Part shown: piece after piece, positions 6,900 to 25,312 of the stretch
How positions within the stretch are numbered: position 1 is the stretch's first letter
How the letters are laid out: each line of letters begins with the position of its first letter
Origin: Clostridia bacterium
GTDB taxonomy: Bacteria > Bacillota > Clostridia > Christensenellales > Aristaeellaceae
Length of the DNA stretch: 39,949 nt
Assembly: GCA_017395685.1 (NCBI GenBank)
Contig: JAFQOD010000011.1
Coordinates: 1-39,949 of the forward strand
Direction of reading: 5' to 3'
Program-made: the position numbers and the translations under genes
The notes under the pieces: model-generated
Databases searched by the model: none
The model's input: the letters and a program-made list of their open reading frames with translations, nothing else
What the model was told of the DNA's origin: nothing

Positions 6900-6949
6900 G
6901 TAATAAAATGTGCAGAGTGTATCTGTATGTGAAAAAGGAGGAAATCATC

Positions 6950-8851: not shown

Positions 8852-8882
8852 GCCTTAAGCATAAAAAGAAAGGAAATGGAAA

Positions 8883-11039: not shown

Positions 11040-11070
11040 CGCTCACCCGAATCCGGGTGGGCGTTTTTTT
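11040..11070 (+). terminator. Strong rho-independent terminator
   Basis: A ten-base stem (11040-11049 with 11054-11063, one G-U pair) with an AATC loop is followed by seven T. It separates the secreted-protein operon from the phage-derived cassette. Confidence 0.9.
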
Positions 11071-11182: not shown

Positions 11183-11215
11183 GGAAAAACCTGTCGTGTC
11201 ATGTCGGGTTTTTCC
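11183..11215. promoter_or_regulatory. Inverted repeat upstream of the phage cassette
   Basis: GGAAAAACC (11183-11191) and GGTTTTTCC (11207-11215) flank a 15-base spacer with three TGTC repeats. It lies 25 bases before the first phage gene, directly followed by AT-rich TGATAAAATGG that could hold a -10 element. It could be an operator or an attenuator; no convincing -35 box was found. The rest of 11071-11239 shows nothing recognisable. Confidence 0.4.
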
Positions 11216-11239
11216 TGATAAAATGGTATCATCCCAAAG

Positions 11240-11470
11240 ATGGAGGTGATGCACACGAAAAGCAAAAAGGATGGGGCGGCCATCCTGAGGGAAAGGTCAG
11301 AGCAGGCGGCCCTGCTGGCGGTGGAAAGGCTGATCAGCCTGCTTTCCGATCCCGATTCCTCCAACGGGGATGCCCTGAAGGCAGCTACCCTGATTTTTGA
11401 AAAAATCTATCCCCTCCAGTCAGGGGGCGGCGCTTCCGGGGATTTTGAAATCTGTGTAAAGGAGGATTGA
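11240..11470 (+). CDS. Small phage protein, probable terminase small subunit
   Basis: The 76-residue protein is predicted helical (RERSEQAALLAVERLISLLSD, then DALKAATLIFEKIYPLQ) and acidic at the end. It sits directly before the large terminase gene, with its stop one base before that start, the usual place of the small terminase subunit that recognises DNA for packaging. It lacks a clear helix-turn-helix and is shorter than typical small subunits, so the assignment rests mainly on position. The start is ambiguous: ATG 11240 or ATG 11249 are possible, but the good GGAGG (11242-11246) lies inside the first and too close to the second. Confidence 0.55.
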   Translation: MEVMHTKSKKDGAAILRERSEQAALLAVERLISLLSDPDSSNGDALKAATLIFEKIYPLQSGGGASGDFEICVKED

Positions 11471-11471
11471 T

Positions 11472-12716
11472 ATGCCCAGGATCACCCTCAGGGGGGATTT
11501 CATTAACCGGATCTACCGGCCCCATCTGGAAAACCGGCACCGGTATCAGATCTATTTCGGCGGCGCAGGCAGCGGTAAATCCGTATTCCTGGCCACCCGA
11601 TGCGTGCTGGATGCCCTGCAGGGCAGAAATATCCTGATCGTGCGTCAGGTGGCCAGAACGCTGAAGGGCAGCTGCTGGAATGAAACGGTCAAGGCCATAT
11701 CCCGCCTGGGACTTTCCCATCTTTTCCGCATCGGCAAGGCCGATTCCACCATTACTGCGCGCAATAACGGCGCGCAGATTTTATTTGCCGGCCTGGATGA
11801 CGTGGAAAAGATCAAATCCCTCACCCCGGCCCGGGGCGCCCTCACCGATATCTGGATGGAGGAGGCCACCGAATGCGCATGGCGGGATTTTAAGCAATTG
11901 GATAAGCGATTGCGGGGCACCAGCCGGCATGTGAAGCGGTTCACCCTCTCTTTCAATCCGGTGTACAAATCCCACTGGATTTTCAAGGAATTTTTCTCCA
12001 TCTGGCGGGAAGAGAAAAATTATGCGGAAAGCGAATGGGTATCCATCCTGAAGACCACCTACCGGGATAATCGTTTCCTCACCGCTGACGACCGGGCGGC
12101 GCTGGAAAATGAGCCCGATCCCTATTTCTATCAGGTGTATACCCTGGGCAACTGGGGATTAGCGGGGGATGTGATCTTCCGCAACTGGCAGATTTCAGAT
12201 ATCGGGGAGGATGCGCCCGGGGAGACCCGAATGGGGCTGGATTTCGGCTTTGCCGCCGATCCCTGCGGCTTTGTGCGGCTGAGGTATGATGGAAGGCAGC
12301 GAAAAATCTATGTGCTGGATGAATTGTATGAAAAGGGGCTGACCAATCTGGATCTGGCGGATCGCCTGAAGCCGTTTGGCAAATACGGCCCCATCACCTG
12401 CGACAGCGCCGAGCCCAAATCCATCGCCGAGCTGCGTGCCCTGGGGCTGTATGTGCTGCCCGCCCGGAAGGGCCCCGACAGCATTATGCACGGGGTGCAG
12501 TGGCTGCGCCAGCAGCAGATCATCCTCTCTCCCCAGTGCCAGCATCTCCGGGGCGAACTGATCCGCTATCAGTGGCAGCAGGATAAGGACGGTAATGCCC
12601 TGCCCCGGCCCCAGGATAAGGATAACCATCTGATCGACGCCATGCGCTATGCCCTGGAGGGGGACATGGCCTGCCGCCGGGCCTATACCGGCAGCAAATC
12701 AGCCCTTGGCTTATAG
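11472..12716 (+). CDS. Phage terminase large subunit, PBSX type
   Basis: The 414-residue protein is the ATP-driven packaging motor and nuclease of tailed phages. The Walker A motif GGAGSGKS is at residues 30-37. The Walker B-like segment DIWMEEATE is at about 126-134, with the acidic pair expected for ATP hydrolysis. The C-terminal RNase H-like nuclease begins at about 253 with MGLDFGFAADP and includes further acidic residues in YVLDELYEKG and HLIDAMRYA. Its length matches PBSX-family large terminases, and no catalytic residue is obviously missing. AAAGGAGG lies just before the start. It is followed 49 bases later by the portal gene. Confidence 0.93.
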   Translation: MPRITLRGDFINRIYRPHLENRHRYQIYFGGAGSGKSVFLATRCVLDALQGRNILIVRQVARTLKGSCWNETVKAISRLGLSHLFRIGKADSTITARNNGAQILFAGLDDVEKIKSLTPARGALTDIWMEEATECAWRDFKQLDKRLRGTSRHVKRFTLSFNPVYKSHWIFKEFFSIWREEKNYAESEWVSILKTTYRDNRFLTADDRAALENEPDPYFYQVYTLGNWGLAGDVIFRNWQISDIGEDAPGETRMGLDFGFAADPCGFVRLRYDGRQRKIYVLDELYEKGLTNLDLADRLKPFGKYGPITCDSAEPKSIAELRALGLYVLPARKGPDSIMHGVQWLRQQQIILSPQCQHLRGELIRYQWQQDKDGNALPRPQDKDNHLIDAMRYALEGDMACRRAYTGSKSALGL

Positions 12717-12765
12717 CCGGGGGCATTTTGATTGCCCGAAGAGAAGAAAGGAGAAACAATCACCC

Positions 12766-14049
12766 ATGATTACCCGTGACCGGGCAATCCTGAAAAGCGG
12801 CCTGAGCGGCAGGCTGCTGCAGGGCTGCCTGAATGAACACATGAGGGGGGTGGAACGGCTCAACCGCCTCAGAGACGCTTACCTGATGCAATCCTGCTCC
12901 CGCCGTCCCCGGGGCGAAGGGCTGCCCGATCATCAATTGCATCATGCCTATGCCCGCTATATCGTCACCATTGCCGCCTCCTATCTGGCAGGCACGGCGG
13001 TGGCCTATCAGGGGGAGGGCAAAGGCCCGGACGCCCTGCGCAAGGCCCTGCAGGAGGGCAATGCCGCTGGGGTGGATCTGGAGCTGGCCCGGCAATGCGC
13101 CCTTTATGGCAAGGGGGTGGAGCTGGTCTACGCCGATTCCAGGGCCCGTCCCCGGGCCGCCGCCCTGGATCCCCGGTGCGCCTTTACGGTTTATTCCGAT
13201 GATGCGGAGGCCACGCCCCTTTTCGGGGTGCATTTCCATCCTGTGCAGGATGAAGGGGGCATCCCCCGGGGCTATCAGGCCCAGGTATACACCGGGGAAG
13301 AAAAGCTCACCTTCCAGGGCCCGGATTTTGCCACCCTGCTGCTGCGCGCCCCCGTCAGCCGCAGCCCCCATTACTTTGGCCGGGTGCCCCTGATCGAATA
13401 CTGGAATAACGAAGAGGAGAAGGGGGATGTGGAAAGCGTGCTTTCCCTGATTGATGCCTATGACACCCTCCAATCCTGCCGGATCAACGATCAGGAGCAG
13501 CTATCCGACGCCCTGCTCATCGTTTACGGCGCCCGGCTGGAAGCGGATGAAAGGGGCCGCACCCCTGCCCAGCAGCTCAGGCAGGATAAGCTTCTGTATC
13601 TGCCCGACCGGGAGGCCGGGGCCCAGTATCTGGTGAAGCAGGGGGGCACCGGCGCAGAGGAGGTGCGCACCGCCCTGGAAAGGGATATCCACAAATTTTC
13701 CATGATCCCCGATCTTTCCGATGAGCAGTTTTCCGGCAATGTGAGCGGCGTTGCCATGAGATATAAGCTGCTGGGCCTGGAACAGCTGACCCGGGGGAAG
13801 GAACGCTGGTTCCGGGAGGGGCTGCAGGAGCGGCTGCGCTGCTTCGCCCATTTCCTTTCGGTGAAGGGCCTGAGGATGGGGGATACGGAGGGCATCCGCC
13901 TGATCTTTACCCGCACCCTGCCGGAAAATGCCCTGGAGGCTGCCCAGATGGTCAAAACCCTGGAGGGCATGGTACCCGATTCTGTATTGCTCTCCCAGCT
14001 GCCCTTTCTGGATGGGCAGAGCATCCCTGAAAATGAAAAGGAGGAATGA
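12766..14049 (+). CDS. Phage portal protein, SPP1 gp6 type
   Basis: The 427-residue protein resembles SPP1 gp6-like portals, the dodecameric ring through which DNA enters the head. Recognisable parts are the N-terminal YARYIVTIAASYLAGTAV (about 64-81), the central VPLIEYWNNEEEKGDVESVLSLIDAYD segment, and DLSDEQFSGNVSGVAMRYKLLGLE near residue 320, a typical portal motif. Start ATG 12766 follows AAAGGAG at 12748-12754 with a slightly long spacing. The frame is open upstream into the terminase end, but that part is not portal-like. The stop overlaps the cluster of ATG codons opening the scaffold gene. Confidence 0.9.
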   Translation: MITRDRAILKSGLSGRLLQGCLNEHMRGVERLNRLRDAYLMQSCSRRPRGEGLPDHQLHHAYARYIVTIAASYLAGTAVAYQGEGKGPDALRKALQEGNAAGVDLELARQCALYGKGVELVYADSRARPRAAALDPRCAFTVYSDDAEATPLFGVHFHPVQDEGGIPRGYQAQVYTGEEKLTFQGPDFATLLLRAPVSRSPHYFGRVPLIEYWNNEEEKGDVESVLSLIDAYDTLQSCRINDQEQLSDALLIVYGARLEADERGRTPAQQLRQDKLLYLPDREAGAQYLVKQGGTGAEEVRTALERDIHKFSMIPDLSDEQFSGNVSGVAMRYKLLGLEQLTRGKERWFREGLQERLRCFAHFLSVKGLRMGDTEGIRLIFTRTLPENALEAAQMVKTLEGMVPDSVLLSQLPFLDGQSIPENEKEE

Positions 14050-14051
14050 TG

Positions 14052-14492
14052 ATGGATCATCAGAGTGACGCACCTGTGGAAATCCCCGCCCCGGAAGCGG
14101 CAGCGGAGGAAAATATGACCGTGGAAGAAAGGCTGTCCGCCCTGGCGCAGCAGATTACCCGGCAGATGGAAAAATCCGCCCAGGAAGAAAAGAACCGCCG
14201 CACCGCCCTGGATGAAAGGGAAACGGCCATCGCCCGCCGGGAAATGCTTTCCCGTGCCCGGGAAGAGATGGAAAAGCGGGGCCTGCCTGCCGCCCTTTCG
14301 GAATGCATGGCATTTGCCGATGAGGATGCCATGAAGCTGGGCATTAATCTGCTGGAGGAATGCTTCCACGCTGCCGTACAGGCGGCGGTGGAGGCAAGGC
14401 TGCTGGATCATGCCCCCAAAACCACCCCTATCCGCCCCCTCAGCGATCTGCCCGATGATGAATACTACGCGGCTGTATGCCGTACCAACTGA
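14052..14492 (+). CDS. Phage capsid scaffolding protein (DUF4355 type)
   Basis: The 146-residue charged protein has a long predicted coiled coil (ERLSALAQQITRQMEKSAQEEKNRRTALDERETAIARRE, about 25-65) and a helical C-terminal part. DUF4355 proteins lie between portal and coat genes in many phages of Bacillota and act as internal scaffolds during head assembly. Three ATG codons occur in a row at 14046, 14049 and 14052. The last is preferred because GGAGG at 14040-14044 then has normal spacing. No capsid protease is encoded nearby, which fits a P22-like assembly route in which the scaffold leaves intact. Confidence 0.8.
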   Translation: MDHQSDAPVEIPAPEAAAEENMTVEERLSALAQQITRQMEKSAQEEKNRRTALDERETAIARREMLSRAREEMEKRGLPAALSECMAFADEDAMKLGINLLEECFHAAVQAAVEARLLDHAPKTTPIRPLSDLPDDEYYAAVCRTN

Positions 14493-14515
14493 CATAAGGA
14501 AAAGGAGAAAGAAAA

Positions 14516-15628
14516 ATGGCCAATACGTTCGTTTCTATCAAGGATTTTGCCCGTGCTGCCCTGCCCCGTCTGATCGAGCATCTGGTATTCCCCAATCTGA
14601 TCCACAAGGATTATTCCGATGATTTCGCTGCCTGCAAGGGCGATACCATCCAGGTGCGCAAGCCTGTGGTGCTCACCGCCCGGGATTTTGATCCCCAGCA
14701 GGGGGTTATCGCCCAGGATATCCAGGAATCCACCGTGGATGTGACCCTGGATAAGATCGCCACCGTGGATGTGGGCATCGAAGCTTTGCAGGGCGCCACC
14801 AGCATCGATGATCTCACCCGCGTCTTCATCGATCCCGCTGCCGCCGCCCTGGCCCAGAAGATCAACAGCGACGGCCTGAAGCTGTATCAGGATGTGTATG
14901 CCGCCGTGGGCGAAGCGGGCAAGACCCCCGATGCCCTTTCCGATTTTGCCGCCGCCCGCAAGCAGCTCAATCTGCTGAAGGCCCCCGTATCCGGCCGTGT
15001 GGCCGTATGGGATGCGGAAGCCGACGCTGCCTTTACCGCCCTGGATCCCATCGTGCATGCGGAAAAATCCGGCTCCACCCAGGCCCTGCGGGAAGGCAGC
15101 ATCGGCCGTGTAATGGGCATGGATCACTACATGAGCCAGGCGGTCAAGCAGCATCAGACCGGCATCACCGCCGCCCAGGCCGTCAAGGTAAATGGAAAGG
15201 TGGAGGAAGGGGCCGCTACCCTGTCCCTCACCGGCACCACCCTCACCGGCAAGCTGGTCAAGGGCGATCTGATCAAGATCGGCGAAAAGACCTATACCGT
15301 CCTGCAGGATTCCGCCGCTGCCACCAGCAATGCCATTGCCGATGTGCAGGTATCCCCCGCCCTGCCTGAGACCGCCGATAAAACGGAAGTGACCCTGCTG
15401 GGCAGCCATACCGCCAATCTGGCCTTCCATCCCATGGCCTTTGCCTTTGTCACCCGTCCCCTGCCCGCTCCCGGCGGCGTGGAAAGCTATGTGACCCATT
15501 ATAACGGCGTATCCCTGCGTGTGGTGCGCGGCTATGATATGCAGCACAAGCGTGAAATGCTGTCCATGGATGTGCTCTATGGCTTCAAGACCCTGTATCC
15601 CGAACTGGCCGTTCGTGTGATGGGCTGA
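14516..15628 (+). CDS. Phage major capsid protein, P22 coat-like
   Basis: The 370-residue protein begins MANTFVSIKDFARAALPRLIE and continues LIHKDYSDDFAACKGDTIQVRKP, the typical opening of P22 gp5-like coat proteins with an HK97 fold. An inserted beta-rich domain (about 222-300: LTGTTLTGKLVKGDLIKIG, TYTVLQDSAAAT) corresponds to the telokin-like insertion of this family. The end (LRVVRGYDMQHKREMLSMDVLYGFKTL) is also characteristic. A good AAAGGAG site precedes the start. High, strongly biased codon use, with few rare codons, fits an abundantly made protein. Confidence 0.92.
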   Translation: MANTFVSIKDFARAALPRLIEHLVFPNLIHKDYSDDFAACKGDTIQVRKPVVLTARDFDPQQGVIAQDIQESTVDVTLDKIATVDVGIEALQGATSIDDLTRVFIDPAAAALAQKINSDGLKLYQDVYAAVGEAGKTPDALSDFAAARKQLNLLKAPVSGRVAVWDAEADAAFTALDPIVHAEKSGSTQALREGSIGRVMGMDHYMSQAVKQHQTGITAAQAVKVNGKVEEGAATLSLTGTTLTGKLVKGDLIKIGEKTYTVLQDSAAATSNAIADVQVSPALPETADKTEVTLLGSHTANLAFHPMAFAFVTRPLPAPGGVESYVTHYNGVSLRVVRGYDMQHKREMLSMDVLYGFKTLYPELAVRVMG

Positions 15629-15645
15629 TAAAGGAGGATACCGCA

Positions 15646-15948
15646 ATGGAGCAGCAAGCATTGCTGGCCTCCCTGCGGCTGCATCTGCCCGATGCGGGGG
15701 AGGGGGAGCAATCCCTCCTCCTCTCCCTGCTGGAGGATGCGGCGGCCCTCATCTGCGCCCTGACCTGGCGGCAGCAGGTGCCGGAAGCATTGAAAAATGC
15801 CCAGGTGCGCCTGGCTGTCATTCTCTATAACCGGATGGGCATGGAAGGGGAAAGGGAGCACACCGAAGGGGATGTGAAAAGGGCGGCGGATGATCTGCCC
15901 GAAGGCCTGCGCCGGGAGATTTTTGCCTTCCGGAAGGCCGTCACATAA
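15646..15948 (+). CDS. Phage head-tail connector, gp6-like
   Basis: The 100-residue helical protein shows the pattern of gp6-like connectors: ESLLLSLLEDAAALICALTWRQ-type N-terminal helices, then LKNAQVRLAVILYNRMGMEGE. These proteins form a ring below the portal. AAAGGAGG lies upstream, and the gene is 17 bases after the coat gene, the normal place for this function. It has no other obvious assignment. Confidence 0.82.
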   Translation: MEQQALLASLRLHLPDAGEGEQSLLLSLLEDAAALICALTWRQQVPEALKNAQVRLAVILYNRMGMEGEREHTEGDVKRAADDLPEGLRREIFAFRKAVT

Positions 15949-15962
15949 GGAAAGGAGCTGCC

Positions 15963-16223
15963 ATGCGATTATTCAAGCGGGGCCGGGTTTCCGTTTTGTA
16001 TCAGGGGGAGAAGATCCCCTGCGCCGTCCGTCCCCTGAAGGGCCAGTGGCAGGCCATGCGCCATGGGGAATATGCCCAGGATACGCTTCGGCTGCTGCTG
16101 CCCTGGAAAATGAAAATCCGGCCGGGGGATCGGCTGGAAGTGGAGGAGAGGCCCTATCGCTGCCTTCAGGTGCGCTGTTATCCCGGGCATATCCAGGCAG
16201 ATGTGCAAAGGTGCAGCCGATGA
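15963..16223 (+). CDS. Small head-closure-like phage protein
   Basis: The 86-residue beta-rich protein (RGRVSVLYQGEKIPCAVRP, MKIRPGDRLEVEERPYRCLQ) lies in the second connector position. Length and secondary structure pattern resemble SPP1 gp16-like head-closure proteins that plug the connector and receive the tail. Sequence alone is not decisive. Its stop overlaps the start of the next gene by three bases. Confidence 0.65.
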   Translation: MRLFKRGRVSVLYQGEKIPCAVRPLKGQWQAMRHGEYAQDTLRLLLPWKMKIRPGDRLEVEERPYRCLQVRCYPGHIQADVQRCSR

Positions 16224-16546
16224 AGGGGCTGCAAAGCGCCATCGGCCGCATCCGCAGCATATCCCCCCGGTGCCGGCAGGCCATGGAAGGGATCATTGGA
16301 AAGACGGTGCAGCTGACCCGGGATGAAGCCCAGGGGATGGCCCCGGTGCGCACCGGCGCGCTGCGCGCATCCATCCGGAGCCGCGCATCCGGGCTGGAGG
16401 GAGCGGTGGAGACGGGCTGCCCCTATGGAGCGGCGGTGGAACTGGGCACCCTGCGCACTCCCGCCCGGCCCTTCCTTCTGCCTGCCGCCCGGCAATCCAA
16501 ATATCATGAAAATGCAAAAAATGCCCTGAAGGAGATGCTGTTATGA
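16220..16546 (+). CDS. HK97 gp10-like phage protein (tail completion)
   Basis: The 108-residue protein has the gp10-like pattern: a helical start, then MAPVRTGALRASIRSR (about 42-57), a central YGAAVELGT and the end PARPFLLPAARQS. Members of this family act at the head-tail junction. The frame continues upstream to 15890, but ATG 16220 overlaps the previous stop in a coupled ATGA arrangement and gives the normal family length. It also overlaps the next gene by four bases. Confidence 0.88.
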   Translation: MKGLQSAIGRIRSISPRCRQAMEGIIGKTVQLTRDEAQGMAPVRTGALRASIRSRASGLEGAVETGCPYGAAVELGTLRTPARPFLLPAARQSKYHENAKNALKEMLL

Positions 16547-16899
16547 CGGATCTGAAACCTGCTATGCTGTCCGCCCTGGCCCATCTGCCGGCCTGCTGCG
16601 CCCTTTCCTTTGCAAAGGAAGAAATGGCCCTGCCTATCATCGTTATCGGCGATGAGCTGCGCCGGGTGCATGCCCGGGCAGACGGGCAGGATTATCTGGA
16701 AGAATATGTGGCCAATGTGGATGTATATGCCGCAGCAACAGAAGAATTGGAAAGCCTGTGCCAGGATGCGGATGCCGCCCTTTCTGCTCTGGGGCTCATG
16801 CGCCAGGCAGCTTACGATCTCTATGATGATCAGGCCTGGGCCTATCGGAAGCATATGCGGTACCGCGCCCTGATCCAGGGCGATACCATCTATCAATAA
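16543..16899 (+). CDS. Probable phage tail terminator protein
   Basis: The 118-residue alpha/beta protein (IIVIGDELRRVHARADGQDYLEEYVANVDVYA in mid-sequence) has the size and position of tail terminator proteins, which cap the tail tube and join it to the head. It follows the gp10-like gene and precedes the tail tube gene. The family is poorly conserved, so the call depends on synteny. Confidence 0.65.
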   Translation: MTDLKPAMLSALAHLPACCALSFAKEEMALPIIVIGDELRRVHARADGQDYLEEYVANVDVYAAATEELESLCQDADAALSALGLMRQAAYDLYDDQAWAYRKHMRYRALIQGDTIYQ

Positions 16900-16912
16900 A
16901 GGAGGAATTTCA

Positions 16913-17317
16913 ATGCCCCAGAAAGCCATGGGCACGAGCATTTCGTGCCGTTACAACGATGCGGATACGGTGATCGGCCGCCTGAAGGCCATCAGCGAAA
17001 TCAAGGCGGACAGCGAAGCGGTGGATGTGACCTGCCTGGATGCCGAAAACGGCTATCGCCAGTATGTGCAGGGCCTGAAAGATATGGGGGAGGTCACCCT
17101 GGAGGGCTTCTATGATGCAGGCCAGGCAGGCCAGCAGATGCTGCGCACCCTGTATGAAGCAGGGGATGCGGTGCCCTTTACCGTTACTTTCCCCGATAAA
17201 AGCAAGGTGCAGTTTACCGCCTTTGTGAAATCCCATGCCCTGGGCGCCGCCCAGGTGGATGGTGCGGTGGGCTTTACGGCGGTGCTGCGGCTTACCGGCG
17301 GGGTGACGCTGCTGTGA
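16913..17317 (+). CDS. Phage major tail tube protein
   Basis: The 134-residue beta-rich protein (IKADSEAVDVTCLDAENGYRQ, then GEVTLEGFYDA) matches short tail tube proteins of siphophages, which stack as hexamers into the tube. Residues near 100-134 (TAFVKSHALGAAQVDGAVGFTAVLRLTGG) fit the usual C-terminal strands. AAAGGAGG is placed ideally before ATG 16913. A tube protein with no contractile sheath gene indicates a non-contractile tail. The stop overlaps the GTG start of the tail assembly chaperone. Confidence 0.85.
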   Translation: MPQKAMGTSISCRYNDADTVIGRLKAISEIKADSEAVDVTCLDAENGYRQYVQGLKDMGEVTLEGFYDAGQAGQQMLRTLYEAGDAVPFTVTFPDKSKVQFTAFVKSHALGAAQVDGAVGFTAVLRLTGGVTLL

Positions 17318-17634
17318 GCCGGATGATTCATCTCTCCGGACAGGCCTATCCCCTGCGCTATACCGTCAACAGCCTGTGTATCCTGGAGGAAAAAATGGCA
17401 TGCGGGCTGGATCAGCTGCTGAAAACCAGCTTTTCCGCCGTCCGCGGCCTTTTGTGGTGCGCACTTTCGGATGCCCGGCCCGGCCTTTCCCTTTCGGATG
17501 CCGGTGATCTGCTGGAAAAGCATCTGAAAGAGGGGGGCTCCCTGGGCCAGGTGGCCCGGATTCTTGCCCTGGCACTGGAGGACGCCGGTTTTTTTCATCC
17601 GGGGAGGGGGGAGGAAAATCCCCCTTCCCCCTGA
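17314..17634 (+). CDS. Tail assembly chaperone, short form (G)
   Basis: The 106-residue protein lies between the tail tube and tape measure genes, the position of the G chaperone in lambda-like tails. It begins MIHLSGQAYPLRYTVNSLCILEEK and is mostly helical. Start is GTG 17314, overlapping the previous stop, or ATG 17323. Near its end, seven T at 17589-17595 form a T_TTT_TTT slippery heptamer in phase, and the -1 frame is open onward to 17918. Confidence 0.78.
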   Translation: MSRMIHLSGQAYPLRYTVNSLCILEEKMACGLDQLLKTSFSAVRGLLWCALSDARPGLSLSDAGDLLEKHLKEGGSLGQVARILALALEDAGFFHPGRGEENPPSP

Positions 17635-17918
17635 GACAGCAGTATTTTCGGCTGCAGAAAAAACTGGCGAATGCCGGGATTGGTGAAGCGATGCAGCTTT
17701 TTTCCATGACACCCAGGGAAATATCCCTGGCAATTGCCCGGCACAGGGCCAGGGAAAAGCAGACCCTGCAGCAGATCTGGCTGCTTTCCCGGTATACGGC
17801 CCTTTCCATACATGCGCCGGAAAGGCTGCCGCCGCCCCCTGCGGATGAAATGCCTGAAATGACGGCTGAAGAAATGAAGCGGCGCCTGCTTGCCTGGCGC
17901 AGAAAGGAAGAATTATGA
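17314..17918 (+). CDS. Tail assembly chaperone, frameshifted long form (GT)
   Basis: A -1 slip at the seven-T run (17589-17595) would join the first 94 residues of the short form to 107 residues of the -1 frame, giving about 201 residues. That frame is open upstream of its first ATG (17691): it reads PLRQQYFRLQKKLANAGIGEAM across the short-form stop, and then MTPREISLAIARHRAREKQT and EEMKRRLLAWRRKEEL. Programmed frameshifts of this kind are conserved in tailed phages with long tails. The T part binds tail tube protein and the tape measure during assembly. The alternative is a separate 75-residue protein from ATG 17691, but no ribosome binding site precedes it. Confidence 0.72.
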
Positions 17919-18496
17919 CCCTGGAAGAATTATCGGTGGTTTTTTCCGCCGATCTTGCGCCTTTTTCCGCTGCGGCGGATCAATTGGGCGCCATTCTTGC
18001 CGGTATGGGCGCCCAGGCGGACGCCCTGGCAGCACAATTTGCATCCGCCGGCAGCCGGGCAGGGGAAGGCTTGATGACGGGCATCCTGTCCTATAAGGGC
18101 AGCATCGTTGCCGCCGCCCGGACCGTGGCCCAGGCGGCTGCTGCCGCCCTCCGGGCAGCGCTGCAGATTCATTCCCCTTCCCGTATTACCTTTGAAACGG
18201 GCAGATATTTTGATGAAGGCCTGATCACAGGCATCCGGGAAGGCACTGCCCGGGTGGAAAGGGAGGCGGGCGGTCTGGGCGTCCGGGCGGCCCAGGCCCT
18301 GCAGATGCCGGAGGTGGAATGGCCGGCCATGCCCCATTTTTCTGCCCCTTCCGGAAAAGAAGATGCCGATCCGCCCTTATCCGGTCTTTCCATCACCATC
18401 CCCTTGGAGGTGGATGGCTATCGCCTGGGTGTTGCCGCTCTTGAGGGCATCAACCGGGTCAGCCAGGGATCGGGCCGGGTGGAACTGGTATTGTAA
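17915..18496 (+). CDS. Miniature tape measure protein
   Basis: The 193-residue protein follows the GT chaperone with a four-base overlap, the fixed position of the tape measure gene. Residues 85-107 (IHSPSR, then GRYFDEGLITGI) match the C-terminal motif common in tape measures of phages of Bacillota. The rest is alanine-rich helix (AGEGLMTGIL, VAAARTVAQAAAAALRAAL). Tape measures are usually 600-2000 residues and set tail length, so this one implies a very short tail of perhaps 25-30 nm. There is no sign of a frameshift or deletion: the frame runs cleanly from a coupled start to a stop placed just before the next gene's ribosome binding site. Confidence 0.75.
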   Translation: MTLEELSVVFSADLAPFSAAADQLGAILAGMGAQADALAAQFASAGSRAGEGLMTGILSYKGSIVAAARTVAQAAAAALRAALQIHSPSRITFETGRYFDEGLITGIREGTARVEREAGGLGVRAAQALQMPEVEWPAMPHFSAPSGKEDADPPLSGLSITIPLEVDGYRLGVAALEGINRVSQGSGRVELVL

Positions 18497-18508
18497 GGAG
18501 GGATGTGC

Positions 18509-18856
18509 ATGATATCGATCAATGGGCTTTCCCTGCCCTCTCCCCATGCGCTGACGGTGCAGATCATTCCCAAAGGGGGCACCAGCCAATATAACGCCCT
18601 GGGCCAGTTGGTGCAGGAGGGAGTGCGGGAAAAACGAATGGTGGAAATCACCTGGCACCGCATGGCGGGGGATCAGCTGCAGGCCCTTTCCCAGGTGCTT
18701 TCAGCGGGGGGATTTTTCACCCTGGTTTATCCTGATCCCCTTTCCAGCCGGCGTGAAATGATCTGCTGCATCAAGCGGCAGACGGCCCGGGTGTGGCAAT
18801 ATCAGCAGGATGCGCCCAAATGGGCGGATGTGCAATTGACATTGGAGGAACAGTGA
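18509..18856 (+). CDS. Small phage tail protein (DUF6711-like)
   Basis: The 115-residue protein (SINGLSLPSPHALTVQIIPK, VEITWHRMAGDQLQALSQVL, GGFFTLVYPDP) resembles short tail proteins found after the tape measure gene in phages of Bacillota. ATG 18509 is chosen over ATG 18503 because AAGGAGGG at 18495-18502 abuts the latter but is well spaced from the former. The stop overlaps the next start (TGATG). A distal-tail or tail-tip role is likely by position; the molecular role is unknown. Confidence 0.6.
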   Translation: MISINGLSLPSPHALTVQIIPKGGTSQYNALGQLVQEGVREKRMVEITWHRMAGDQLQALSQVLSAGGFFTLVYPDPLSSRREMICCIKRQTARVWQYQQDAPKWADVQLTLEEQ

Positions 18857-20955
18857 TGATCAGTCAAGCATTTGCGGATCATCTTTCCGCCCCCGGCCGC
18901 CGCCTTTCCCTGGCCGGTGAAATTTCTTTATCCACCGGGGCCTGCCTTTCCTTTGACGGCAGCCAGGCCCTTTCCTTTTCCCTCAGCGAGGGCAGCAATA
19001 CGGGCAATCTGCTGGGCGGTGCCTTTTCCGCTGTCTGCGCCCTGACGCTGTATGACCGGGAGGATATCTTCAGGCCCTACAGCCTGATCGGTGCCCAGGT
19101 GCAGCTCTATTTATGCGCCGGGGATGAAAGGGCGCCCCTTGCCTGCTTTTTTGTCACCCGGGTATCCCGGCAGGAGGGCAGCAAGCAGCTGCATCTGTCC
19201 GGCAGCGACGCCCTGGGGGTGGCCTTTGAAACGGCCTTTGAGGATGATTTCCTCTATCCTGTTACCCTGGGAGAAATGGCGGCGCAGATGGCGGCAAGGG
19301 TGGGATATGCCCTGGATACGGATTTTCCCAATGCCGGTGTGGTGATCCAATCCGCCCCTGACTGGGGAAAAATTTCCCTGCGCCAGGCGCTGGGGCATGC
19401 CGCCGGGGCGGCGGGCTGCTTTGCCGCCGCAGACCGGAGCGGCGGGGTGCATTTCAGGCGGGTCTGGCAGGATGAGGTTCTTCTGCCTGTGCAGCCGGAT
19501 CAGATTCTGGGCCAGCAGTGCGGCGAACTGTGCTTTGGCCCCCTTTCCGCCCTGAGCATTCAGCTGGACGGGGCCCCCAGAACGGAAGGGCCGCTGGTAA
19601 TCCGCGCGGCGGATGATCCGGTCAGTCCCATGAATTGCCTTTCCCTGGCTGGCAATCCCCTCTTTTCCTGGCAGGCGGATCATACCGCTGCCCTGGCGAT
19701 GGGATTGATGGATGCCCTGCAGGGCATGCGTTTGATTCCTGCCCGGCTTACCTGGCGGGGCAATCCGGAAAGATGCCTGGGGGATCGGCTGCCCATGCTG
19801 CTGCCCTCCGGCGAACGGCAGGAAATGATGATCACCCGGCAGACCCTTTCCTTTTCCCAGGGCTTCTGGATGCAGAGCGATTGCACAGCCGCCGCTGATC
19901 AGCAGACCACAGGCCGTATTTTTACCGCCTCCGGCATGCTCAATGCCGCCCGGCTTTCCGGCAGCATCAACGGCGCCCTGATCCAGGATGGCTCCATTGC
20001 CGCTTCCTCCCTGATGGCTGGCAGTATTACGGCCTATCAGCTGGCTGCCGCTGCCGTTACGGCGGAAAAGCTGGCGGCAGGCGCAGTGGAGACAAGCCAT
20101 CTTTCCGCCGGGGCGGTGGATGCGGAAAAGCTATCCGCCCATGCGGTGGAGGCCCGGCATCTTTCGGCAGACGCCCTGGACGCCGCCTCCGCCCACATCC
20201 TGAAGGCGGATATCGATTGGGCAGAAATTGAATCCCTGCAGGCGGCCATTGCCCACATCACAAGCGCAGAGATTCAGAACGTGGATATCGACTTTGCCCG
20301 GATCAAGGATCTGAATGCAGATACCGCCATCATTACCAAGGGCAATGCCGGGGAGCTGTATATCAGCCGGCTTTCAGTAACGGAAGCAAACCTTGTTTCT
20401 CTTTCTGTGGGCCAGCTGATGGTGAAGGGTGCTGACGGCGCATTCTATGCCCTTTCCGTGGATGAAACAGGAGCTGTCAAAGCAGAAAAGAAGCTGATTG
20501 AAAACGGCGATATCCGGGATCTTTCCATTGATGCAGGGCAAAAGATCATCGAAGGCAGCGTGACGGCGGCCACCTTGAACGCAAGAGAAATCTTTGGTGA
20601 ATCCGCCCTGATTCGGGAGCTGATCGCATCCACCCTGGATGTGGATACCCTGTTCGCCAGGGAAGCCATGATTGCAAAGCTCAACGCCCTGGATATCACA
20701 GGCAATGAATCTATCCGGCTGTATGTAAAGAGCCAGGAGGAAATGAGCGCATTCCTTCGGGTGACAGAAAACGGGCTGGAGATTGGCCGGGTGGGGGATA
20801 CGGCCACCTTCCGGGCAGATAACCGCACCCTGGAAGTGACCAATGTAAAGACCGAGCGCCTGGGCCTTGCCCAGCGCATGAGCCAGAAGGAAGAATGGGC
20901 CGTATCCGCTTATAACAGCGGATTGAGCATCAAATGGATTGGAGGGGATGCATAA
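18856..20955 (+). CDS. Phage tail-tip protein with decapeptide-repeat stalk
   Basis: The 699-residue protein has a globular N-terminal half (1 to about 365) resembling baseplate and tail-associated proteins (FYLCAGDERAPLACFFV-like strands, GVAFETAFEDDFLYPVTLGEMAAQMAAR). A repetitive stalk follows at about 365-530. The clearest repeats are ten residues long: AVTAEKLAAG, AVETSHLSAG, AVDAEKLSAH, AVEARHLSAD. Similar stalks join tail tip and fibre in many phages. The C-terminal third is helical and may bind the fibre. Start ATG 18856 overlaps the previous stop; the longer open frame is shadow sequence of the previous gene. Confidence 0.75.
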   Translation: MISQAFADHLSAPGRRLSLAGEISLSTGACLSFDGSQALSFSLSEGSNTGNLLGGAFSAVCALTLYDREDIFRPYSLIGAQVQLYLCAGDERAPLACFFVTRVSRQEGSKQLHLSGSDALGVAFETAFEDDFLYPVTLGEMAAQMAARVGYALDTDFPNAGVVIQSAPDWGKISLRQALGHAAGAAGCFAAADRSGGVHFRRVWQDEVLLPVQPDQILGQQCGELCFGPLSALSIQLDGAPRTEGPLVIRAADDPVSPMNCLSLAGNPLFSWQADHTAALAMGLMDALQGMRLIPARLTWRGNPERCLGDRLPMLLPSGERQEMMITRQTLSFSQGFWMQSDCTAAADQQTTGRIFTASGMLNAARLSGSINGALIQDGSIAASSLMAGSITAYQLAAAAVTAEKLAAGAVETSHLSAGAVDAEKLSAHAVEARHLSADALDAASAHILKADIDWAEIESLQAAIAHITSAEIQNVDIDFARIKDLNADTAIITKGNAGELYISRLSVTEANLVSLSVGQLMVKGADGAFYALSVDETGAVKAEKKLIENGDIRDLSIDAGQKIIEGSVTAATLNAREIFGESALIRELIASTLDVDTLFAREAMIAKLNALDITGNESIRLYVKSQEEMSAFLRVTENGLEIGRVGDTATFRADNRTLEVTNVKTERLGLAQRMSQKEEWAVSAYNSGLSIKWIGGDA

Positions 20956-23738
20956 TGGCTGTACTTTCCCTGAACGGCGGCAGTGTATCCATTTCCAGCA
21001 GCTGGTATTACCGCTATGACCCGGATGAACGGGATTATCTGTACGGAACGCCGTCCACCGGCTACGATGCCGTTTATTTCGATTTATCAGGCATCCCGGA
21101 AGGGGCAGAGATTCAGAGCGCCGTTCTGACCGCCAGCCGATGGGGCAGCGGCAGGCTGCTGATGGCCGGGGTGAATGCCGGAACGGTGGAGCTTGACCCT
21201 GCCGATATCAACCCGGAAGAGGAGCTTAGAATCGCATTTTCTTTCCAGGCAAACGGCGGCTATAAAACCGGCAGCGCCACCAGCGGCACTGTGACGGCCA
21301 GCGGCGGCTTTCAGAATATCACCCTGACCATCACCTATGAAATGCCCTATACCGCCCCCACAGCGCCCACGGTGGTGACTATTTCAAAAGCAACGGCCAC
21401 CCCCGGCGAAAGCGTCACCCTTTCCTGGAGCGGCGCAAAGGCGGGAAATAACGTAAACATTTCCGGCTATCAGGTGTATCGGGCATCCTCTGCGGATGGG
21501 GAATATGCCTATCTTGCGGAAACGGATGCGGATACGCTGAATCTTTCCGTTACCGCCCCCGGCAGTGCAGGGAGCTATTTCTATAAGTTGAAGGCGCTGG
21601 GCGATATTTCCGGCTATGACAGCGGATTATCCGATGCATACGCCCAGGTATCCGTATCGGTTACGGCCCCTGCTGCACCTGACACACTTACTATCATTCC
21701 CTCTGCGCAATATCCGGGCGGGGAAGCCATTCTTTCCTTCTCCGGTGCAGCAGCGGGAGAAAATAACCCCATCCGGGGCTATGCCCTGTGGATGGCAGAC
21801 CGGCAGGATGGGCCATTCGAACAGATTGACACCCTCGTCAGCACGGCAGAAAGCGGTGCATTTACCGTATACGCCCCGGACAGCGGCAGCCGATATTACA
21901 AGGTGCAGACCCTGGGCCAGTACATGGACGGCCCCCTTTCCAATGCGGCGGTGATCACGGCCGATCTATCCGGCACCAGCGATTTTTCCCTTTCTGAGGA
22001 TAAGGTGGATGCAGGAGAGGCCCTTACCATCACTCTGCTATCCAATACGGACAAGGCCCATACCCTGATTGCTTCCATTGGAGAATATTCGGAAACCATC
22101 CAATCGGCGGCAGGGGCTGGATCCATTTCCTTTACCCCGCCCCTTTCCTGGCTTTCTGCCATGCCGGAGAGCGAAACAGCGCCCATGCTGCTTTCCCTTG
22201 AAACGGCAGGAGCAGGAACCATTGAAAAAACGGCCCTTCTTCGCTGCCCGGATGATGTGGGGCCCATTGTTTCCGGGGCCTATGCCCTGCGGATTGATAA
22301 CGATGTGCCAAGCGGCTGGGGCGTATATGTGCAGGGCAAATCCCAGGCAGAAATCCATCTGGATCAGGAAGCGGAAAGTGCCTACGGATCCCCCATCCTC
22401 CTATATCGGATGGCGGGGGCAGGGGCCGCGGCGGAAAGCGCCGGTCTGCCCTTCACCATGATGACGGGGCTGCTCCCGGCAGGGGAGGTAACCATCACCC
22501 TTTCGGCAACGGATGCAAGAGGCAGAACGGGCACCCAGAAGCTGACAATTCCTGTGGAACCCTATCAGGCCCCGGCCCTCAAAAACATCGTCACCCTGCG
22601 CTGTGATACAGAAGGCAATGAAATGGATGAAGGCACCTATGCCAGCATGGAAGCCGATCTGATCTATTCCTCCTGCGGCGGGCATAACAGCGTATCCGTC
22701 ACAGCCGCCTACAGGATTGCAGGAACCGAGGAATGGATAAATGCCGGAAGCATGGCAGAGGGCATGCTGATCTTCGGGGACGGAGAAATGAACATCGGCC
22801 AGAATTATGATATCCGGTATCTGCTGGGTGACGGCCTGGGCGCAGAAGTGATTTACTACGATGTGATCACCAGGGCGAAGCCGGAGCTGCATATCAAGCG
22901 GGGCGGCGGCGCCTGGGCCTTCGGGGGCCTGGCGGATGTGGATGGTGCCTTAAAGATTTACGGCAATCTGCAGATGACAGGGGGCTTCCTGATGGGCATT
23001 GAAAATGCAGGGCAGCTTTTATATGTGGCCCCCAACGGCAGGGCACAGCCCCTGGCCCTTGGCAAGGGCATGTATATCGATAACGGCGTATTGCAGCTGG
23101 GCACGCCCCCGTGGGAAGGCACACCCCTTTCCAATCTGGTTGCCGGTACGCTGGTATATCTGATGGAAGATCAGCTGACCCCCTATATCGTGCTGGCCCA
23201 CAATCATCATGGAAGCGGGCTTACCACCCTGATCCGCTACAGGGCATGCAGCACAGAATCAATGTATTTGGCTTCGATCCCGCCCTATGCAAGCAGCGTC
23301 AAGTACAATACTTCGGCGCTGAATACGGCCTATACAAACTACTATGATGCCCTGCCTGCGGATACCCAGGGAAAGATTGAAGCGGTGGATATCCCCATTG
23401 TTGCAAACGCCAATGTATCCACCCTTACTACCGTAAACACCCATATGTTCGCCCTGTCTGCCATGGAATATACAGGGCAGCAACAGGCCGAAGGCACCCA
23501 TATCCCGTACTTTGCGGATGATGCATCCAGAATCGCCTATGAGGAGGATGGGGCCACAGCAACGTATGTTTGGACGAGAACCCCATCAGGGGGCATGAAC
23601 AATTATGCAAGGGCCGTAAATGTCGATGGCGTACTGGCCAGCAGTGGCGTGAAAAGCTCACTTCCCCTGCGCCCTGCCTGCTGCGTGAAATCGGATATTG
23701 TGCTTTTCAAAGATGATGAGGACAGATACATTCTGTAA
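20955..23738 (+). CDS. Phage tail fibre with fibronectin III and DUF6273-like end
   Basis: The 927-residue protein starts with a beta-rich domain (about 1-125, LYGTPSTGYDAVYFDLSGI). Two fibronectin type III-like domains follow (about 130-235 and 236-337, with GYQVYRAS and GYALWMAD). Further beta domains lead to a C-terminal segment (about 713-915) resembling DUF6273: WTRTPSGGMNNYARAVNVDG and SSLPLRPACCVKSDIVLF. DUF6273 is related to C-type-lectin-like folds used in cell-surface binding. It is therefore the probable receptor-binding fibre. GGAGGGG precedes ATG 20955. No reverse transcriptase or template repeat that would suggest diversity generation is in the window. Confidence 0.75.
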   Translation: MAVLSLNGGSVSISSSWYYRYDPDERDYLYGTPSTGYDAVYFDLSGIPEGAEIQSAVLTASRWGSGRLLMAGVNAGTVELDPADINPEEELRIAFSFQANGGYKTGSATSGTVTASGGFQNITLTITYEMPYTAPTAPTVVTISKATATPGESVTLSWSGAKAGNNVNISGYQVYRASSADGEYAYLAETDADTLNLSVTAPGSAGSYFYKLKALGDISGYDSGLSDAYAQVSVSVTAPAAPDTLTIIPSAQYPGGEAILSFSGAAAGENNPIRGYALWMADRQDGPFEQIDTLVSTAESGAFTVYAPDSGSRYYKVQTLGQYMDGPLSNAAVITADLSGTSDFSLSEDKVDAGEALTITLLSNTDKAHTLIASIGEYSETIQSAAGAGSISFTPPLSWLSAMPESETAPMLLSLETAGAGTIEKTALLRCPDDVGPIVSGAYALRIDNDVPSGWGVYVQGKSQAEIHLDQEAESAYGSPILLYRMAGAGAAAESAGLPFTMMTGLLPAGEVTITLSATDARGRTGTQKLTIPVEPYQAPALKNIVTLRCDTEGNEMDEGTYASMEADLIYSSCGGHNSVSVTAAYRIAGTEEWINAGSMAEGMLIFGDGEMNIGQNYDIRYLLGDGLGAEVIYYDVITRAKPELHIKRGGGAWAFGGLADVDGALKIYGNLQMTGGFLMGIENAGQLLYVAPNGRAQPLALGKGMYIDNGVLQLGTPPWEGTPLSNLVAGTLVYLMEDQLTPYIVLAHNHHGSGLTTLIRYRACSTESMYLASIPPYASSVKYNTSALNTAYTNYYDALPADTQGKIEAVDIPIVANANVSTLTTVNTHMFALSAMEYTGQQQAEGTHIPYFADDASRIAYEEDGATATYVWTRTPSGGMNNYARAVNVDGVLASSGVKSSLPLRPACCVKSDIVLFKDDEDRYIL

Positions 23739-23749
23739 AGGAGGGAAAC

Positions 23750-24391
23750 ATGGATAAGATCGAAACGGTAAAAAACTGGCTGCTTTCCCGGGTGGGGAAT
23801 CCGTATCTGATGGGGGGCACGGGCCAGCCCTGCACGGTATCCTACCGCAAGGCCAGGGCGGCCCAGTATCCCGGATCGGCGGCGAAAATCAAGGCCAATT
23901 GCCCCCGGATGATGGGCAGGGCCGATAGCTGCAAGGGCTGCAAGTATTTCGATGATTCCACCGGGCAGGGGAAGCGGGCCTATGATTGCGCCCAGCTCAC
24001 CCGCTGGGCCATGGACGCCATTGACATCAGGATGGTATCCGGCGCCACATCCCAATGGAATAAAACGAAATGGGCTGAAAAAGGCGAAATGGATACTCTG
24101 CCACCGGATACTTTATGCCTGGTATTCCGGCAGGATAATCCCAATACCATGGGCCATACCGGCATCTGTCTGGGGGATGGCACCTGCATCCACGCCAAGG
24201 GGCATAAGGAGGGCGTTGTGCGGGAAGGAATGGCGGAATATGGCCGCTGGACCCACTGGGCCATCCCGGAGGGGCTGTATCCCACGGAAGCGGATGCGCC
24301 TGACGGGGTGGTGCAGGCGCTGGAGGCATTGCGCCGGGCGGTGGAGCGGCTTTCCTGCTGCCTTGACAGGGAGCGGCAGAATGCAGGATGA
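23750..24391 (+). CDS. NlpC/P60-type phage endolysin
   Basis: The 213-residue cysteine peptidase-like protein would cut peptide bonds in peptidoglycan at cell lysis. The nucleophile is probably Cys80 in AYDCAQLTRWAM, and the catalytic histidine His136 in MGHTGICLGDG. Between the N-terminus and Cys80 lie four further cysteines (28, 51, 61, 64; the last three as CX9CX2C) that could bind zinc or form disulfides. No separate wall-binding domain is present; the last 40 residues are helical. AAGGAGG precedes the start, and the end overlaps the next gene by 11 bases. Confidence 0.85.
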   Translation: MDKIETVKNWLLSRVGNPYLMGGTGQPCTVSYRKARAAQYPGSAAKIKANCPRMMGRADSCKGCKYFDDSTGQGKRAYDCAQLTRWAMDAIDIRMVSGATSQWNKTKWAEKGEMDTLPPDTLCLVFRQDNPNTMGHTGICLGDGTCIHAKGHKEGVVREGMAEYGRWTHWAIPEGLYPTEADAPDGVVQALEALRRAVERLSCCLDRERQNAG

Positions 24392-24692
24392 TCTGGAACG
24401 CCGGGTCGCTGCCCTGCAGGCCCAGTATGCCGCCATGCGCCGGGATATCAAGGCGGCCTTCCGCCGGATTGATGAGCAGACCCGGCTTACCGATACGGTG
24501 CATCAATTGGCCCTTTCCATCCGGGATCTGGCCAACAAGCAGGAAAATACCCAGCAGGCGGTGGCCAGCATCCGCCGGGATGTGGATGAGCTGAAAAGCC
24601 GCCCTGCCCGGCGGTGGGAGGCGGTGATGATGGAGATTATCAAATATCTGGCTCTGGCCGCCGCCGGCTATCTTACCGCCCATCTGATCTGA
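24381..24692 (+). CDS. XhlA-like coiled-coil membrane protein of the lysis module
   Basis: The 103-residue protein is a predicted coiled coil (about 1-75, with LERRVAALQAQYAAMRRDIK and LANKQENTQQAVASIRRDVDEL) followed by one C-terminal membrane helix (EIIKYLALAAAGYLTAHLI). This is the architecture of XhlA/hemolysin-like proteins that work with holins in phages of Bacillota. It starts inside the end of the endolysin gene and is followed 13 bases later by the holin gene. A tail-less spanin-type role cannot be excluded. Confidence 0.75.
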   Translation: MQDDLERRVAALQAQYAAMRRDIKAAFRRIDEQTRLTDTVHQLALSIRDLANKQENTQQAVASIRRDVDELKSRPARRWEAVMMEIIKYLALAAAGYLTAHLI

Positions 24693-24705
24693 AAAAGGAG
24701 GAAGC

Positions 24706-24891
24706 ATGGAACAGAATCGGTTGAAATCCTGGGCGCTGTGGACCTCCATCGCCGCCCTGATCACCTTCTGCCTGAAGGAATTTTTTGATCTGGATCTGCA
24801 GGCAACCATTGATGGTTTTCTCAATGTGCTGCTGCCGGTGCTGGTGGGCTTTGGCATCGTCAATAACCCCACAGATAAGGAAAAACTATAA
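24706..24891 (+). CDS. Phage holin, phi-LC3-like
   Basis: The 61-residue protein has two hydrophobic segments (WALWTSIAALITFCLKEFF and DGFLNVLLPVLVGFGIVNNP), the compact layout of small holins that permeabilise the membrane for endolysin. The GIVNNPTDKEKL end matches many holins of phages of Bacillota. AAAGGAGG lies before the start. Its stop codon falls inside the terminator stem that ends the cassette. Confidence 0.85.
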   Translation: MEQNRLKSWALWTSIAALITFCLKEFFDLDLQATIDGFLNVLLPVLVGFGIVNNPTDKEKL

Positions 24892-24930
24892 AAATACGGC
24901 CTCTGCTTTCATGGCAGAGGCCGTATTTTT
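24890..24930. terminator. Bidirectional terminator at the right edge of the phage cassette
   Basis: A perfect 17-base inverted repeat (24890-24906 and 24914-24930) has a seven-base loop and is flanked by A and T runs, so it can stop transcription from both sides. It separates the holin gene (plus) from the SdpI-like gene (minus) and overlaps both stop codons. Confidence 0.92.
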
Positions 24931-25312
24931 ATTGTGGATTGACGGGATTTCCGTCTTTATCAAAATGCTTTTTCAGCGCCCGTTCGGTCAGCACAATGGG
25001 GATCATCATGGGGATCAATTGGATCAGAAGCAGAACGGTGCCGGCAATGCCGATGGCGTCCTCTCCCTTCTGAATGAAAAACAGCATGGGGATGGCGCTC
25101 AGCAGCAGCCATAGGCCCCAGCGGTACCACAGCCTTCCAAAGTGCTGATGGGCGAAGCACCAGGTATCCTGATTGCGCATGGAGCGATAGGTACGGTAAC
25201 CGTACAGAAAGCCAATATCCTCCGGGGGCTTATCCATGAAGCGGCGGCCGAAAAAAATCATCAGCCCGGGGATCAAAAGCACCATGGCCAGCATGAAAAA
25301 CCAAAATCCCAT
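24929..25312 (-). CDS. SdpI family membrane protein
   Basis: The 127-residue protein has three hydrophobic segments and the SdpI-type loop GFLYGYRTYRSMRNQDTWCFAHQHFG. The family is named for the Bacillus subtilis immunity and signal protein against the SDP toxin, but most members are of unknown role. No toxin gene is seen nearby. AAGGAGG precedes ATG 25312. The gene is the last of a three-gene minus-strand group and lies 16 bases after the epimerase gene. Confidence 0.8.
   Translation of the reverse strand: MGFWFFMLAMVLLIPGLMIFFGRRFMDKPPEDIGFLYGYRTYRSMRNQDTWCFAHQHFGRLWYRWGLWLLLSAIPMLFFIQKGEDAIGIAGTVLLLIQLIPMMIPIVLTERALKKHFDKDGNPVNPQ

Follow-up and report, generated by a model that had tools for sequence, protein, structure and literature searches.

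A domesticated phage particle cassette with an unlinked candidate regulator: a predicted gene transfer agent-like element of gut and rumen Clostridia

The 39,949 bp contig JAFQOD010000011.1 (hereafter, the window) belongs to a 2.83 Mb draft genome, 96% complete, of an uncultured Clostridia bacterium. Its central part is occupied by a cassette of 19 contiguous plus-strand genes (11240-24891) that form a single-strand operon of 13.7 kb and encode packaging, head, tail, and lysis functions, as assigned with PHROGs and Pfam profiles. The sequence-only reading of this locus had recognized a complete set with all frames open, which holds for all 19 cassette genes; its count of 18 genes has to be corrected. 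Most probably, the cassette represents a vertically inherited, domesticated element resembling gene transfer agents (GTAs), with predicted roles in particle formation, packaging, and transfer.

The packaging genes stand first. A small terminase (TerS)-like protein of about 73 aa without a DNA-binding domain (11249..11470; the open frame begins at 11240 and would give 76 aa) adjoins the large subunit TerL (11472..12716; PF04466, PF17288). The head genes encode the SPP1 gp6-like portal (12766..14049; PF05133, 3.8e-82; start taken from codon-scored gene calling), the scaffold (14046..14492; PF14265, phrog_172), and the major capsid protein of the P22 coat type (14516..15628; PF11651, 4.9e-43, and phrog_283). 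They are followed by a gp6-like head-tail connector (15646..15948; PF05135), a probable head-tail stopper (15963..16223; weak phrog_615), an HK97 gp10-like neck protein (16220..16546; PF04883, phrog_5), and a tail terminator (16543..16899; phrog_78). The tail region includes the major tail tube protein (16913..17317; phrog_158, PF16461), a tail chaperone-like protein (17314..17634; phrog_2115), a small conserved protein (17691..17918), a tape measure of 193 aa (17915..18496) whose best matches cover the C-terminal portion of profiles about 1,000-1,700 aa long, a distal-tail-like (Dit-like) protein (18503..18856; assigned from position and phrog_1194, which has no named function), a tail-tip or Tal-like protein (18856..20955; phrog_6616), and a tail fiber (20934..23738; phrog_372). 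The fiber ends in a DUF6273 domain (PF19789), which we take to resemble C-type-lectin variable domains. The stopper and the gene at 17691-17918 have weak profile matches only and are assigned from the gene order, which is conserved in relatives. The operon ends with an NlpC/P60 lysin or tail hydrolase (23750..24391; PF00877), an XhlA/hemolysin-like lysis protein (24381..24692; phrog_937), and a holin (24706..24891; phrog_297). No contractile-tail gene is found among the 19.

The cassette is bounded by terminator-like stems and host genes, as the sequence-only reading had described. A plus-strand terminator (11040..11063, a stem of 10 pairs and a T run) precedes the cassette promoter (11192..11224), in which a GTC repeat at 10 bp (G[TC]C-N7-GTC[AG]), a probable activator site, is followed by the -10 element TAAAAT. 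The downstream terminator (24888..24932) has a stem of 19 pairs, the most of the 20 terminator-like sites in the region, where 13.4 are expected. All Pfam-matched neighbors are host genes: MatE, VanW, and truA (5919..6680, minus strand, PF01416) on the left and SdpI, epimerase, TIM-barrel, and FMN dehydrogenase on the right, where the isoleucyl-tRNA synthetase (IleRS) gene and other plus-strand genes were named by eye. The window contains neither a tRNA gene nor direct repeats of at least 18 nt bracketing the cassette. The other features of a temperate prophage, namely integrase, repressor, and replication genes, are absent from the flanking proteins scanned (window, G007, G011, G024, and G067; the rest of the genome was not searched). 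The lack of these genes and of bracketing repeats agrees with the earlier claims. Base composition, taken earlier to be like that of the neighbors, is near but not equal to it, with a GC content of 59.0% in the cassette versus 55.7% and 55.5% in the flanks.

The coat protein served to map the distribution of the cassette. A match is present in 16 of 60 relatives, and 14 of these belong to the genus of the window. In total, 14 of the 29 genus genomes, own genome included, carry the cassette, always in a single copy and with coats 69-88% identical to the one in the window (outside own genome). In 200 genomes of the family 35 coat matches were found: 22 at ≥55% identity, spread over 10 genera, 12 weak ones (≤26%), and one fragment at 47%. 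In 391 genomes of the class there are nine, that is, own genome, three at 65-66% in one other family, and five lower ones (G448 and G263 at 47% and 49%, G275 at 34%, and two at 23-25%). The 17 named records are metagenome-assembled genomes (MAGs) of Clostridiales, Clostridia, Firmicutes, and Oscillospiraceae, many of them labeled as rumen or gut, with one Christensenellaceae and one Pullichristensenella.

Within the genus, the gene order of the cassette is kept as far as the contigs extend, with fiber and lysin unmatched in some carriers. The insertion site beside truA is occupied in nine genomes. In eight of them (G001, G008, G012, G014, G018, G021, G026, and G027) truA is divergent and stands directly beside terS; in the window two genes lie between. 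In carrier G022 the contig begins inside the portal gene, so that the left side is off the contig. At the far end, pyrH, tsf, and rpsB come next in G012, G014, G018, and G021, as far as contigs allow, with an extra gene first in some. In cassette-less G028 truA directly faces pyrH, and in cassette-less G016 a single small gene separates them, one that also stands behind the cassette in G018 and G021. The empty-site junctions and the pyrH, tsf, and rpsB genes were read by eye. The sequence-only reading had named two patterns that would speak against domestication, integrase and early genes joined to the cassette in relatives and an empty site flanked by direct repeats. Neither was seen in the genus: such genes are absent from the flanking proteins sampled (window, G007, G011, and G024), and in the junction pairs of four relatives the longest common word is 7-8 nt, a length reached by 50 to 146 of 300 shuffles.

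The two genes intervening in the window (6866-8851 and 8883-11018) are adjacent, lie on the plus strand, and resemble surface proteins with a common TasA/camelysin-like N-terminus, judging by eye; for the second, Pfam gives no match. They are found between truA and the cassette only here, unlike the eight other carriers at this site.

The cassette has diverged together with its hosts. The rpoB tree covers 26 of the 29 genomes (rpoB is missing or too short in G004, G008, and G022), with 7 of its 23 inner branches well supported; the cassette tree, built from nine proteins of 14 genomes, was compared with it on 12 common genomes. Seven of nine splits agree, and none of 20,000 label permutations did as well. 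The distances are correlated both across the genus (Mantel r 0.93, 1 of 20,000 permutations) and within eight truA-site genomes (r 0.76, 52 of 40,320), the cassette distances being roughly fourfold those of RpoB (median ratio 4.2). A single region of the midpoint-rooted rpoB tree holds 13 of 14 cassette-less genomes and also carrier G012; G017 stands beside the clade with a second insertion site. Given this placement, loss is the simpler reading.

All 18 cassette genes tested are under purifying selection. The codon-model omega ranges from 0.127 (TerL) to 0.375 (scaffold) with 5-10 genomes per gene, compared to 0.138 for truA, 0.103 for ileS, and 0.049 for rpoB; the estimates may be saturated, as tree lengths are 3.6-20 per codon. 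The set comprised the truA-site genomes and G022, and the fiber, with three genomes, was left out. Rows aligned over less than 60% of the gene were dropped, as were six with stops in the high-scoring segment pair (two truA and four cassette rows); in the four cassette rows these stops lie in end overhangs. Thus, the comparison suggested by the sequence-only reading gave the outcome expected under domestication, that is, the same site in nine genomes, congruent inheritance, and omega well below 1 in all tested genes.

The same data bear on the main alternative named earlier, a prophage in decay whose early region is gone. All genes of the cassette come from phages, over half of the genus genomes are without it, two sites are cleanly empty, and the fiber region of G021 (L041, about 7867-9839) holds two overlapping frames, either two genes or a split one. 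Disrupted genes and relaxed selection, which decay should produce, are not observed: none of the non-fiber rows aligned over ≥60% of the gene is broken, omega stays at 0.13-0.38, and co-divergence extends across the genus. The unlinked regulator described below, which is kept or lost together with the cassette, also contradicts decay. The cassette is domesticated rather than decaying, and we regard the decay scenario as very improbable.

Two proteins of the cassette are short. The first is TerS. In 13 genus genomes the TerS rows, with hand-picked starts, are 62-77 aa long, have 11 invariant columns, and align with the 73 aa form of the window. The stop-to-stop frame is 73-82 codons in G000, G001, G008, and G012 and 89-94 codons in G024 and G021; the other seven frames open further upstream (98-465 codons), into the promoter region. 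These frame lengths and the promoter position rule out a hidden N-terminal domain in four genomes and make one unlikely in the rest. The AlphaFold model of the window TerS is a two-helix hairpin (residues 9-33 and 39-53, pLDDT 76) with a loose tail. Ten TerS or TerS-position proteins were run against Pfam as a panel: those of G448, L038, THSA-485A, and Marinitoga camini virus 1 match Terminase_2 or helix-turn-helix (HTH) families above the cut-off; those of the window, G067, and G321 have no Pfam match, that of G259 has a weak unrelated match, and that of G089 weakly matches DUF5681. The available part of PMC6854486 describes a TerS without a DNA-binding domain in RcGTA, the GTA of Rhodobacter capsulatus, and proposes that the loss allowed random packaging. 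By analogy, the window-type TerS has presumably lost its DNA-recognition domain, and the motor should load any DNA. The second protein is the tape measure, which is short in 12 genus genomes (184-214 aa aligned); outside the genus, that of G241 has 1,163-1,210 aa.

Short TerS-position proteins and short tape measures were also seen elsewhere. Host-flanked cassettes of about 10 kb in a family with a GC content of 38% (G321, L198:9405-19957; and G259, L197) have TerS-position proteins of 78-81 aa and possibly represent another GTA-like lineage; the gene names in these two genomes, including the cassette flanks, and in G448 and G263 were given by eye. An Oscillospiraceae MAG (SIG711) has a 12 kb particle cassette (L038:6431-18638) with a tape measure of 262 aa and a TerS that matches HTH; no life-cycle gene was recognized nearby by eye.

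Several observations weigh against a domesticated GTA-like element, in addition to the possible saturation of omega and the G021 fiber. The name TerS is based on position, size, and helices, and a Foldseek search with the window model gave nothing at E ≤ 0.001. G130, from another genus, shares the coat and has a short tape measure as well, and its TerS is full-length (145 aa; the codon-scored call is 69 aa, and the Pfam panel used this cut frame) and adjoins a regulator homolog (locus L205:1084-1908); hence the TerS loss is not family-wide. The cassette is missing from 15 of 29 genus genomes, and the 12 cassette-less truA regions read include two empty truA-pyrH sites and ten with other neighbors or a contig end. 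A second clade (G007, G011, G015, and G024) carries the cassette at a different site, where the flanking proteins of three genomes are host genes or have no match. In G067, from another genus, the same cassette with a 193-codon tape measure lies between CNNM/Pyr_redox genes and an AI-2E transporter gene. Finally, in G069, also from another genus, a CI-like S24 repressor gene and a sigma-r4-like gene stand just upstream of terL (L177:6579-7848; rarA there was named by eye), and no integrase was found among the proteins scanned. The G069 arrangement is possibly an intermediate from before the regulator became unlinked.

Some of these facts would suit a phage lineage that still moves with the integrase and replication functions of another element and looks vertical through host specificity. 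It would explain the different sites in the two clades and G067, the full-length TerS of G130, and the homologous coats that other families have in prophages equipped with early genes (G448, whose TerS has 139 aa, and G263, both read by eye). We consider it improbable, as there are no bracketing direct repeats in the window or at four junction pairs of relatives, each genus carrier has a single copy, the truA site is shared within a congruent clade, and the genus TerS lacks the recognition domain.

A further argument for the domesticated GTA-like element comes from regulation. The pattern G[TC]C-N7-GTC[AG] is found upstream of terS in 13 of 13 regions, with a -10-like hexamer 13-15 nt further on; it was fitted to the same 13 regions, and its background is 0.015 per 80 nt. 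In its strict own form it occurs once in the genome. When the G069 regulator was used as a query in 16 genomes, weak unlinked relatives emerged in G000, G001, G011, G012, and G021, and four of them were used to build a profile. This profile matches at E ≤ 2.6e-22 in all 14 carriers and in none of the 15 non-carriers; without the four model rows the ratio is 10/10 to 0/15 (Fisher 3e-7, kinship uncorrected), and the cassette losses amount to few independent events, so that these counts too speak less strongly for the domesticated element than they appear to. Non-carriers G017, G013, and G003 have matches at E 4.4e-7 to 7.5e-5 only, and three carriers have extra weaker ones, the best in G011 (6.2e-18). 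All 14 strong matches lie on contigs other than that of the cassette.

The regulator operon has a common layout: TTGAC[AT], 17-18 nt, TATA[AC]T, a GAAC-N4-GTTC box, a gene for a 73-77 aa Cro-like protein, and the activator gene. The box is present in 14 of 14 operons (four of which suggested it), compared to eight occurrences in 299,949 background bases, and is absent from the four weaker regulator matches checked. The Cro-like gene was read in frame in 13 of 14 operons, and the promoter elements were read by eye. Of three activators scanned, matches include phrog_36 (4.3e-21), phrog_248, and sigma-70 region 4/DUF1492; the three small proteins scanned weakly match HTH_3-like and phage repressor families. 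Judging by the box, LexA likely controls this operon. Two observations disagree: the lexA genes, found in six of eight genomes, are preceded in all six by CAAAC-N4-GTTTG, which by eye shares the AAC-N4-GTT core and is not GAAC-N4-GTTC, and of 12 recA genes only 1 has a box. In own genome a DnaN-type sliding clamp gene (L207:1896-3020) lies next to the regulator operon and is convergent with it.

The operon could instead control something else, the match with the cassette reflecting shared ancestry only. Since the cassette-less genomes are mostly from one tree region, co-loss may have happened two or three times, and the second relative in G011 (E 6e-18) stands in surroundings that, by eye, look like those of a phage or plasmid; the family is therefore not confined to this element. 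On the other hand, the activator fits phage late-activator profiles, a homolog immediately precedes TerL in G069 and another lies ahead of the terminase genes in G130, and G017, which lies apart from the other cassette-less genomes, lacks both cassette and regulator. We find this explanation rather unlikely.

Under the preferred reading of a domesticated GTA-like element, the following scheme can be proposed. The regulator operon, located on a different contig, would be repressed at its LexA-type box, from which induction by the SOS response is predicted. It would act as a trans switch, its products being the Cro-like protein and the activator, which is of ArpU/sigma-r4-like type. The latter would bind the 10-bp-spaced repeat, which overlaps the -35 region in the cassette promoter, and the cassette operon would make a small-tailed particle. 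With a TerS devoid of the DNA-recognition domain, the motor would load any DNA, and the NlpC/P60, XhlA-like, and holin proteins would lyse the cell, releasing the particles. By analogy with known systems, virus-like particles carrying pieces of host DNA are the most likely product.

Among these systems, RcGTA (Rhodogtaviriformidae) is encoded by one head-tail cluster of a size similar to the cassette. It has an HK97 coat with a protease, whereas the cassette has a P22-type coat with a scaffold. P22-type coats are not known to use a capsid protease, and therefore its absence, noted in the sequence-only reading, is uninformative. The host phyla are unrelated, and the sigma-r4/ArpU-like activator with a LexA-type box differs from GafA. 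Common to both, in the accounts available in part, are a TerS without a DNA-binding domain (PMC6854486), vertical inheritance (PMC9662315), and a separate activator gene, gafA in RcGTA. The likeness is one of description, the sole sequence signal of the RcGTA family being a weak, below-cut-off match of the chaperone-like protein to PF11836 (GTA-gp10).

PBSX of Bacillus subtilis resembles the cassette, again by description and not by sequence, in the TerL type. PBSX also has XhlA-like and holin lysis genes, as in the cassette. The cassette differs in lacking a contractile-tail gene among its 19 genes and in having a separate regulator operon and a P22-type coat. FpGTA of Faecalibacterium, as far as PMC12946183 was available, is also from gut Bacillota and shares a TerS without an obvious DNA-binding domain, an operon with TerL, portal, scaffold, and coat, and lysis genes. 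It is split into operons of 10.5 and 5.5 kb and is called podovirus-like; the cassette is one 13.7 kb operon that includes genes for tail tube, tape measure, and chaperone-like proteins, and a candidate for its regulator is known. The two are likened by description only. Brachyspira VSH-1/BhGTA is likewise, by its partial description in PMC9662315, a GTA of a gut anaerobe, from a different phylum.

PBSX packages DNA without injecting it (PMC12946183, in the part available), and a domesticated killing particle of this kind, in which fiber and lysin aim and kill and the packaged host DNA is not delivered, is the main competing explanation. It agrees with the PBSX-type TerL, the annotation of some phage neighbors as PBSX family, and the XhlA-like and holin lysis set. 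The fiber is the least conserved large gene (median identity 42%, n=4, versus 81%, n=9, for the coat), which would fit warfare, although such variation is expected in any receptor-binding protein. The available portion of PMC12946183 voices the same doubt over FpGTA. However, selection on head, portal, and terminase genes is as strong as that on tail genes, and overall we hold a killing particle to be unlikely.

The definition of GTAs by Kogay et al. (2022; PMC9662315), in the part available, lists six features. Three of these are found here: (i) particle proteins derived from Caudoviricetes; (ii) full endogenization, often at several loci, since the cassette is flanked by host genes, mobility genes are absent from the flanking proteins scanned, and all 14 carriers have the regulator on a separate contig; and (iii) mostly vertical inheritance with co-diversification with the host. 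The other three describe particles that mostly enclose random host DNA, have a head too small for the complete genome of the element, and deliver their DNA to other cells; on the first of these the TerS lacking a DNA-binding domain bears only indirectly. The split loci should make packaging of the whole element in one piece unlikely. Because three of six features are found, we use the term GTA-like and do not file the element as a GTA; with this wording, the GTA candidacy through domestication put forward in the sequence-only reading is supported by the common site, host-congruent inheritance, and low omega. The chances are about even that the 13.7 kb operon for a P22-coat, very-short-tailed particle and the unlinked LexA-boxed, SOS-wired Cro/sigma-like operon form a separate, independent lineage of GTAs in Clostridia of gut and rumen, ancestral to the genus.

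Two observations concern the right flank. IleRS (29465-32602) was tried as a host marker and rejected, since two very different types exist in the genus (80-94% versus about 36% identity): of the frames found in all 29 genomes, 17 are 80-100% identical to that of the window and 12 about 34-39%. In addition, tandem 140 nt copies, 91% identical, occupy 27115-27408.

In summary, the window provides a complete GTA candidate from uncultured gut and rumen bacteria, with a record of inheritance, a TerS that lacks the DNA-binding domain, and a putative switch acting in trans, so that the control and spread of GTAs in gut Bacillota become directly testable. The open-licence PMC literature yielded no published GTA operon of Christensenellales, and very few GTA gene sets are reported outside Alphaproteobacteria in the available part of PMC12946183. 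A suggested search signature is a host-flanked cassette with a TerS lacking HTH, a short tape measure, and an unlinked ArpU-type activator. Related host-flanked cassettes in the family and in the GC-38% family suggest that such particles are common in these bacteria. In its relevant section, the 2026 fecal study PMC12946183 attributes 3 of 25 GTA-like packaging events to Christensenellaceae and gives operons for Faecalibacterium only. If the proposed role is true, particles of the kind described here may account for the packaged Christensenellaceae DNA seen in feces.

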